From Clostridiales bacterium (lineage in GTDB: Bacteria > Bacillota > Clostridia > Lachnospirales > Lachnospiraceae): 32,478 nucleotides of DNA. Below the pieces are notes generated by a model. The model did no database searches. It worked only from the letters and a program-made list of their open reading frames with translations, and was not told the origin of the DNA. The DNA is taken from assembly GCA_012519195.1 (NCBI GenBank), contig JAAYQP010000087.1:1-32478 (forward strand), given 5' to 3'. A program made the position numbers and the translations under genes. Every line of letters begins with the position of its first letter. Position 1 is the stretch's first letter. Shown piece after piece: positions 24,339 to 27,332 of this stretch.

Positions 24339-24382
24339 AAATGTCCATCGCACAGACTTTTCATTGCGACGGACATTTTTTA
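24339..24382 (+). terminator. intrinsic terminator of the sugar transporter operon
   Basis: AAATGTCCATCGCA (24339-24352) / TGCGACGGACATTT (24365-24378) plus TTTT. Confidence 0.8.
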
Positions 24383-24391
24383 TGGTATAAT
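24364..24391 (+). promoter_or_regulatory. putative promoter of the coiled-coil/FtsEX operon
   Basis: TTGCGA (24364-24369), 16-nt spacer, TATAAT (24386-24391). The -35 lies inside the 3' arm of the upstream terminator. Confidence 0.5.
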
Positions 24392-24397
24392 GTTCAC

Positions 24398-24581
24398 GTA
24401 TAAGCAGATTAGCCCAAGGAGGTAAGAGTATTTTCAAGCTCGCTTGAAAAAATACTCTTGCGTGCTTGGGTAAGTGCAACGTGAGCGAGAAAGCTCAGCT
24501 TTCGAGCTCTAATCTGCGAGAGGTTTAGACAGTCTGGTTGCAGATTAGTTCGCACACTACCAACCAATTGGGGGGATTTTT
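24398..24581 (+). ncRNA. structured 5' leader, candidate cis-regulatory RNA
   Basis: P1 GCAGATTAG (24404-24412)/CTAATCTGC (24509-24517); CCCAAG (24413-24418)/CTTGGG (24465-24470); AAGAGTATTTTCAAGC (24424-24439)/GCTTGAAAAAATACTCTT (24442-24459); GAGCGAGAAAGC (24483-24494)/GCTTTCGAGCTC (24498-24509); second GCAGATTAG at 24540-24548 can displace P1. Confidence 0.6.
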
Positions 24582-25712
24582 ATGTTAAATCATAAGCCAT
24601 TACATCTTATAATTCCATTTGCTTTAGCTATATTTGGCGCTTTCATTCTACTGCCAAGCCATGTAACCGGTGAGGTAGCACCTATTACGGAGATGGAAGA
24701 TAAGCTAAAAAACATTTCCGAGGAAGAAAAAGAAGTTCTGGGCAAGCTCTTTACGATAACGCAAAAGATTGAAGAAATGGAATTGGAAGAAGCAAGGATA
24801 ACCGAAGAAATCAACCAATTAATGATAGATATACATAACATAGAACTTAGGATCGAAGAGAAACAGGCAGATTATGACCAGCAGTTAGATATCATGGAAC
24901 AGTTCTTGGTTCTTTATCAACGGGGTGGTCCTGCTTCCTATCTTGAAATTCTACTAAATGCCAATGATCTAACCACCTTTCTGAAAAGTATCAACATGAT
25001 TAAAGACATATCAAAAAATGTGAATGAACTTCTTGAAAGCATAGAAATTGCCAAACAAGTACTGGAAGAAGAGAAATTGAATCTAGAGGAGAGTCTGCTT
25101 GTCCTGGAGCAAAAGAAAGAGGAACTTCAGGAACCGATCCGCAGACAGAAAGAGTTAAAGAAGGAACAGGAAGATTATCTGGCCTCCCTACAGGAGAATA
25201 AGATCTATTATGAACAGCAGCTAAGAAATCTGGAACAGTTGTGGGCGGATAATCAGGTCATATTCTCAGAAATCGTCTATGAAATAAGTAAAATTGTTGG
25301 GGAAGGATATTTTGAGACATCGGATCTTAATCTAACTTTTTCCTTTACCGGTATAAGAGGTCATATCAAAGAGGAGACCTTTAATCAGATGCTTCAAGAA
25401 CGATCCACTCTGCCAGAAACAGTATTCACCTTCCTGCCAGATAAGATATTAATTAAGGTACCAGAAAAGCATCTGGAGCTCAGTGGAAACTTTACCATGG
25501 TGGAAGATAGTACAGTGAATTTTATCGCCGAGGAAGGCACCTTTTATGATATGCCATTAGAGAAATCCTCACTGGAGGAACTGTTCCGGGAGGGACCTCT
25601 GGTAATCAATTTTAAGAAAATGGCGGAAGGAAATGTTATCATCGATTTTTCCGTAACCAAGGTGGAGAGTCAGGAAGGTGCACTAACCTTTGAAATCAAG
25701 CCGATCTTTTAA
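24582..25712 (+). CDS. secreted/membrane-anchored coiled-coil protein, EnvC/PcsB-like N-terminus, no recognisable peptidase domain
   Basis: N-terminal hydrophobic signal; long coiled coil (about aa 35-220) containing EQFLVLYQRGGPASYLEILLNANDLTTFLKSINMIKDI, typical of EnvC/PcsB/CwlO-type coiled-coil regions; directly upstream of ftsE-ftsX-like genes. C-terminal about 130 aa is beta-rich and unassigned. Confidence 0.75.
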   Translation: MLNHKPLHLIIPFALAIFGAFILLPSHVTGEVAPITEMEDKLKNISEEEKEVLGKLFTITQKIEEMELEEARITEEINQLMIDIHNIELRIEEKQADYDQQLDIMEQFLVLYQRGGPASYLEILLNANDLTTFLKSINMIKDISKNVNELLESIEIAKQVLEEEKLNLEESLLVLEQKKEELQEPIRRQKELKKEQEDYLASLQENKIYYEQQLRNLEQLWADNQVIFSEIVYEISKIVGEGYFETSDLNLTFSFTGIRGHIKEETFNQMLQERSTLPETVFTFLPDKILIKVPEKHLELSGNFTMVEDSTVNFIAEEGTFYDMPLEKSSLEELFREGPLVINFKKMAEGNVIIDFSVTKVESQEGALTFEIKPIF

Positions 25713-25764
25713 AGTAATACTCATTTAGCAAGCCATGATTGTATGTGCTGGAATGGAGGAAAAT

Positions 25765-26442
25765 ATGATTGAAGCAAAAGGAGTTTCTCTGCGGTATCCG
25801 GATGGGACCGTAGCATTAAAGGATATTAATTTACATATTAAACCTGGTGAAATGGTCTATATTACAGGGCCCAGTGGCTCGGGAAAGACGAGTTTGTTAA
25901 AACTATTACTTGGAATTGAATTTCCTACCTTTGGTTCTCTTAAGGTTATGGATAAATCCATGGTAAGAAGCAGAAAAGGCAGAATTAATAAGTTAAGAAG
26001 AAGGATTGGACCAGTATTCCAGGAGTTTAAGCTGATTGAGGGAAGAACCGCACTGGAAAATGTTATGATTGGAATGCGGTTTCTTGGAAAATCACCTAGG
26101 AAAATAAAAGAGGAGGCAATCAATGCCTTAAAAAGGGTGGGATTAGAAGAGAAAATTTATTCTAAAGTGGAGAACCTCTCCTGGGGGCAACAGCAGAGAG
26201 TAGCAATCGCCCGTGCAGTAGCAAGAAAGCCGGCATTAATTCTTGCCGATGAGCCTACCGGTAATCTGGATTATGATAATGCAATCAATATTCTGAAGCT
26301 ATTGAATTCCTTTAAGGATAGCAATACAACGGTTATCATTACCACCCATGCAACTCATCTAATTGAGGGGCAGAAGGATGTAACCTATATCCATGTAAAC
26401 AACGGTTCTATTACCGTAGAACGGGAGGAACTCGCGGTATGA
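25765..26442 (+). CDS. FtsE-like ABC transporter ATP-binding protein
   Basis: ATG 25765 after ATGGAGGA; Walker [16 protein letters not shown]-loop [17 protein letters not shown] (FtsE-like), signature [14 protein letters not shown], Walker [14 protein letters not shown]; followed by ftsX. Confidence 0.87.
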
Positions 26443-27332
26443 AAACATTCTTTTATAATATAGGATACTTTATGAAAGAGGCCTGGAGAACCATACGAAT
26501 GAACTTCTTATCGAACTTTTTCTCCATAATAGGAACCGGTTTAATATTATTTCTCTTAGGGTTGGTTACGGTCGGAACGATCATAGGTAATCAATTTATC
26601 ACAAAGCTATCTCAAGAGGCAGAAATAAGTGCTTATTTTGTTGAAGATATGGGTGTGGATGCCGCTAAGGAATTGGTCAGCGAGATCCAAAACATCCAAG
26701 GGGTATGGAATGCGAAACTAATTGATGAGATGCAGGCTTGTGCCATGATGGAAGATATGCTAGGAGAAGAAGCAAAGATTCTGGAGCTATTTGAGGATAA
26801 CCCCTTTAAAGCATTTATTGAGATTAGAATCGATCTGGATGCTATGGAAACGGTACTTTCCCAAGTGGCAAGTCTTGAGGGTATTGACTATGTCCGTGAT
26901 AATCGTGCCGTTTTAAAGCAATTGCAGAGTATTATTAGAGGAGTTGAGGTGGTTGGTTATTTAATAACCCTTGCAGTGGGTATCACTACCTTAATCCTAT
27001 TATCCCATATGATTCGTCAGGGAATTTATAATAATCGAGAGCAGATTAATACTCTTCGCTTACTAGGGGCTCCGGGCAGCTTCATCGGTTTTCCTTATGT
27101 CTTGGTAGGGGTTCTTCTTACCTTGCTAGGCGGTGGATTGGCAATCGCACTGCTAATACTTTTAATCGATGGAGGTTATCCTAAGATTAGTGGAACGATT
27201 CCATTTCTACCTCTGCCGTCACAGACCCTTTTAATTCAACAATCCGCTACTTTAATTGTAACGGTAAGTGTTATATTGGGAGTCCTAGGCAGCTTATTTG
27301 GACTTTCCTCCATAGGGAAGGATAATCGTTAA
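26439..27332 (+). CDS. FtsX-like permease
   Basis: 4-nt overlap with FtsE-like gene; FtsX layout: TM1, extracellular domain (EAEISAYFVEDM...LIDEMQACAMMEDMLGEEAKILELFEDNPFKAFIEIRI), three C-terminal TMs with REQINTLRLLGAPGSFI. Confidence 0.88.
   Translation: MKTFFYNIGYFMKEAWRTIRMNFLSNFFSIIGTGLILFLLGLVTVGTIIGNQFITKLSQEAEISAYFVEDMGVDAAKELVSEIQNIQGVWNAKLIDEMQACAMMEDMLGEEAKILELFEDNPFKAFIEIRIDLDAMETVLSQVASLEGIDYVRDNRAVLKQLQSIIRGVEVVGYLITLAVGITTLILLSHMIRQGIYNNREQINTLRLLGAPGSFIGFPYVLVGVLLTLLGGGLAIALLILLIDGGYPKISGTIPFLPLPSQTLLIQQSATLIVTVSVILGVLGSLFGLSSIGKDNR

Follow-up and report, generated by a model that had tools for sequence, protein, structure and literature searches.

Does the folded leader in front of an operon encoding a coiled-coil protein, FtsE and FtsX act as a switch for that operon, or does it belong to something of wider occurrence? 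We considered this question for a window of 32,478 nucleotides, the whole analysed stretch of a contig from a Clostridiales bacterium of the Lachnospiraceae. A sequence-only reading had proposed an undescribed two-state leader RNA specific to this operon, in which the closing helix P1 and an alternative pairing with a second copy of its 5' strand (anti-P1) exclude each other. All words on which it relied (TATAAT, P1, the arms, the tandem GA/GA mismatches and the second GCAGATTAG) were found where it had placed them. FtsE and FtsX are the best NCBIfam matches of the operon reading frames, with scores under the cut-offs of these models.

The structured 5' leader directly behind a sigma-A promoter is genuine (Table 1). 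The 24398 region folds better than all of 200 shuffled sequences (z = -6.3), and compensatory change is extensive. The hairpin-rich leader and the -10 box span positions 24386-24517, with TATAAT at 24386-24391 and the extended TG at 24383-24384 (TGG), as located by inspection, and transcription is predicted to start at about 24398. C24509 is common to P1 and arm 2, so that the two helices are in competition for a single pair. At 24340-24391, the upstream sugar ABC operon has a terminator hairpin that overlaps with the -35 region of the promoter for coiled-coil/ftsEX.

Table 1. Features of the leader and its operon in the window
Feature	Position	Strand	Basis or remark
Sigma-A promoter	24364..24391	+	Sequence; -35 TTGCGA 24364-24369, 16-nt spacer, extended -10 TGGTATAAT 24383-24391
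Conserved left edge of element, GTTCACGTATAA	24392..24403	+	Inter-copy homology starts here
P1 5' strand GCAGATTAG, terminal inverted repeat	24404..24412	+	Sequence; near-invariant across copies
Arm 1 hairpin, about 57-58 nt, tip AGCTCGCT	24413..24469	+	Constant length, hypervariable sequence
Conserved linker GTAAGTGCAACGTGA	24470..24484	+	Conserved among copies
Arm 2, tandem GA/GA internal loop	24485..24508	+	7/8 pairs with two-sided changes
P1 3' strand CTAATCTGC, right edge of inter-copy homology	24509..24517	+	90-97% identical copies part ways directly after
Second GCAGATTAG (anti-P1)	24540..24548	+	Exact repeat of P1 5' strand
Operon: coiled-coil protein, FtsE, FtsX	24582..27332	+	Open reading frames

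The leader is not confined to this locus. BLASTN within the same assembly found four further copies (74-78% identity) in the contexts of obgE, gmk, recG and sbcD. A covariance model built from these five own-genome copies yielded 20 matches in this genome, about 8 of them strong, and matches in 26 of 34 congener genomes. Copy number within the genus ranges from 0 to at least 51 per genome, all per-genome counts being lower bounds obtained by scoring 99 candidates in each. Contigs often break inside copies or arrays, and thus the copy numbers in MAGs are underestimates; many such contig ends were observed in three genomes. Strong matches outside the genus come mainly from Mobilisporobacter senegalensis, which has at least 23 copies. 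Named records with the exact left end are mostly Clostridiales and Lachnospiraceae MAGs and M. senegalensis DSM 26537. Three copies sit in a MAG recorded under the title Anaerolineaceae, where the title or the bin is possibly wrong.

Copies tend to lie behind promoters. The logo anchored at the -10 box reads TTGA(A/C)A at 17 nt and TATGnTATAAT, and the same pattern fronts about 70% of copies; a -35 box with at most two mismatches precedes 51% of copies compared to 15% of shuffled flanks. With genes predicted by a simple ORF caller, 116 of 129 copies are followed by a gene in the same orientation, at a median distance of about 82 nt; in M. senegalensis this holds for 14 of 16. Copies without a -10 box often occupy operon-internal sites at the stop codon of the preceding gene, and most of these are in sense too. 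The downstream genes have diverse and unrelated housekeeping functions (DnaD, ObgE, GalK, Apt, MurI, GreA, TsaC, AsnS, Tig, PlsX, TruA, SbcD, MurG, RecF, Def, Lgt, DnaJ, PyrE, QueA, YhaM) and do not form the coherent set expected for a riboswitch. Across copies, no conserved feature was observed between P1 and the start codon that could serve as an expression platform, nor any conserved terminator after P1.

The fold is conserved to a far greater extent than the sequence of arm 1. In 33 ungapped copies, 35 of 44 pairs have two-sided changes, with none of 500 shuffles as strong; the covariation score reaches 0.516, as compared to 0.180 in shuffled alignments and at most 0.125 in slid controls, and 92.4% of cells are paired. 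In arm 1, two-sided compensatory changes were found in 26 of 27 pairs. P1 is near-invariant within the genus; both strands change together in three copies, and it becomes GGGCAGAG/CTCTGCCC in two other genera, with coordinated change in G140/G055. Leaders of orthologous dnaD genes from four genomes keep the fold via 10-12 compensated pairs with at most 5 broken ones, and the closest dnaD pair has 3 compensated pairs. The commonest form of the linker, ATAAGTGCAACGTGA, is present in 42 of 119 copies. In some copies (e.g. L026, L027, L093) Watson-Crick pairs stand in place of the tandem GA/GA of arm 2, and in three others extra hairpins GGTTCAGC..GCTGAACC replace or adjoin arm 2 in the region of the linker and this arm. 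As judged from the aligned copies, selection acts on the pairing of the element. An additional pairing is possible between CACG (24395-24398) at the left end and CGTG (24480-24483) in the linker; among 114 copies these words read CACG/CGTG (59), CGCG/CGCG (14), CATG/CATG (4) and CAAG/CTTG (1). Since the predicted start at 24398 cuts the CACG word, this pairing may be relevant at the DNA level or in transcripts that begin further upstream.

The repeated unit has the appearance of a MITE. It is non-coding, about 125 nt long, and has inverted-repeat ends GCAGATTAG/CTAATCTGC, which reach about 20 bp in three copies. There are multiple copies with sharp ends: within one genome the bodies are 85-97% identical, the flanks on both sides are non-homologous, and the similarity stops upstream of approximately ATNTYCACGA(A)T and downstream of CTAATCTGC. 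Tandem, truncated and arm-deleted units exist. A second dispersed repeat, starting with GATATAATAnnAGCGTAGTGAGCATATGCAAGCTTGCTTGC and carrying a -10-like start, flanks some copies (L081, L084, L167). The longest candidate target-site duplications, those of L081 and L084, were withdrawn because their flanks are part of another repeat; for window-type copies duplications show a weak excess only, and flush duplications were not demonstrated. An end-based search for an autonomous element led to nothing other than additional copies, remnants and ends of contigs; in 20 further matches to the ends, taken from four genomes in a non-exhaustive search, there was no cognate transposase.

Empty sites are seen between rpmA and obgE. 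In most element-free relatives the rpmA terminator is followed by the conserved promoter GGTTGTATTT...TATAAT; eight genomes without the element keep TTGTATT..TATAAT there, and in three genomes with the element it starts directly behind that -10 box. In one of these eight genomes (G004) the window locus is element-free as well and retains CGACGGAC...TATACT in a similar terminator-promoter stretch CGACGGACTTTATTTATATTATACT. It appears that in the window the element likewise sits behind the -10 box of an older promoter, and this promoter is probably native to the operon and external to the mobile unit. Some orthologous sites (dnaD, recG, secA, obgE) have kept the leader, which could reflect a host function.

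We observe dispersal with unrelated flanks, a fixed position after the -10 box, a sense bias, selection on the pairing, and empty obgE sites, probably joined by an empty window locus in one relative, that keep the promoter. In our view the leader is likely one copy of a MITE-like folded element that is non-coding and dispersed, located behind the -10 box of the older promoter of the operon. Such an element, consisting of P1 and two arms, would have landed directly behind this box in sense orientation, and from this position it would have become the 5' end of the mRNA. It would be moved by a transposase acting in trans, with insertion favoured at active promoters or survival favoured behind them. 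Its effect might be mild and general, such as a structured 5' end slowing mRNA decay, rather than ligand sensing. The orientation of the copies speaks against this reading, since a symmetrical element with terminal inverted repeats should insert both ways; to explain the sense bias, selection or an unusual mechanism would be required.

Bacterial MITEs and transcribed intergenic repeats such as ERIC/IRU, BOX and Correia elements are small, non-coding and dispersed, have inverted-repeat ends and a strong RNA fold, and can enter mRNAs. The window element shares these traits, as likened by description, the sequence comparison being limited to Rfam. Unlike them, it has a hypervariable arm 1 of fixed length, near-invariant ends, a strict position behind the -10 box and a strong sense bias. 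It resembles riboswitch leaders in being a 5' leader after a promoter, with a multi-helix domain and widespread compensatory changes. However, it lacks a coherent gene set, a conserved expression platform and a conserved alternative pairing.

A relative of the element is already present in Rfam. No family reached its gathering score for the window leader in the cmscan search, and microRNA matches were chance matches to long hairpins. However, several copies have Clostridiales-1 (RF01699) as their best relative in the same register, with 31.7-42.2 bits (31.7 for the window, 42.2 for the best of 20 loci), all under the gathering threshold of 48 bits; no RF01699 match above this cut-off was found in the own genome. 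The leader is thus not wholly undescribed. The shared architecture (model positions 1-166) comprises a closing helix followed by AG, a long first arm of about 58 nt with a GCTTGC tip, and a second arm with a purine-rich internal loop; both families are dispersed in Lachnospiraceae. The window element differs in the absence of the middle hairpin of about 50 nt (48-50 model positions are unmatched in the alignments) and of the right end CCTTTTGACCCC..ACATCA. The comparison indicates that it is a diverged, promoter-linked relative of RF01699, homologous in architecture.

RF01699 is typed as sRNA in Rfam; it was listed as 'RNA y, cis-reg n, switch n' from Clostridiales and human gut (PMC2864571), and a literature search found no paper describing it beyond this 2010 listing. 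Of 150 Lachnospiraceae genomes, 64 contain it above the cut-off, frequently in high numbers per genome. In a sample of 50 copies (L203-L252, e.g. from genome G071), its ends are TGAT...ATCA (TGATRCCAGGGTCAAAAGG), and a flush 5-bp duplication follows ...CATCA in 21 copies versus 1.1 in shuffles. Of the genes that follow, 22 share the strand of the copy and 23 lie on the opposite one. Because of these target-site duplications and the unbiased orientation, RF01699 looks like a MITE and behaves as one; the window element differs in its sense placement behind sigma-A promoters.

The strongest competitor of the MITE-like reading, which we regard as possible but unlikely, is a large cis-regulatory regulon, in which a protein or a global signal tunes many housekeeping genes through a class of structured leaders, and dispersal means recruitment rather than selfish movement. 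The sense orientation, the promoter linkage, the conserved linker and the compensatory changes at orthologous dnaD loci agree with it. It does not easily account for the variation in copy number within one genus, near-identical copies at unrelated loci, the absence of a conserved feature from P1 to the start codon, or the MITE-like behaviour of the related family, which has no orientation bias.

Slightly more doubtful is the idea that the folded element installs itself, in one orientation, where the -10/start region of an active promoter is melted, perhaps recognizing its own ends by base pairing, as the covariation of the left-end CACG with the internal CGTG might suggest. If true, it would produce dozens of 5' leaders of the same fold in a genome, which would influence the fate of their mRNAs in a common way.

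That each copy is a gene of a trans-acting small RNA with its own promoter, in line with the annotation of RF01699, is improbable: there is a promoter with a start just before P1, but no conserved terminator follows P1, the copies are close to, and mostly in sense with, the next gene, and in element-free relatives the promoter belongs to the downstream gene.

As for the proposed two-state geometry, both pairings are possible on paper, with close energies (-66.8 kcal/mol for forced P1, -72.4 kcal/mol for forced anti-P1). However, the second GCAGATTAG is exact in just 7 of 109 copies, with 11 more having one mismatch, and anti-P1 was rejected as a conserved switch. Compensatory changes support P1 (in few copies) and the arms. 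Two of the refuting conditions that the sequence-only reading itself had named apply in modified form, namely dispersed copies, here diverged, and the lack of conservation of anti-P1. Most other occurrences of the second GCAGATTAG mark the point where another, partial repeat unit begins; since the family often has tandem and partial units and does not conserve anti-P1, the copy in the window is likely a remnant of a second, truncated unit. An operon-specific riboswitch with mutually exclusive P1 and anti-P1 is thus largely refuted, and we give it hardly any credence in spite of the real promoter and leader, as the element is dispersed (in diverged rather than identical copies), fronts many unrelated genes, and is absent from all 29 orthologous coiled-coil/ftsEX operons examined.

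The MITE-like reading turns a single riboswitch candidate into a genome-wide phenomenon, in which as many as tens of housekeeping genes in a genome share a folded mobile 5' start, and it points to RF01699, an sRNA family in Rfam, as a transposable element. The occurrence of the element in a cultured strain, M. senegalensis DSM 26537, provides a testable case of a mobile element that either aims at promoters or is kept only as a sense 5' leader.
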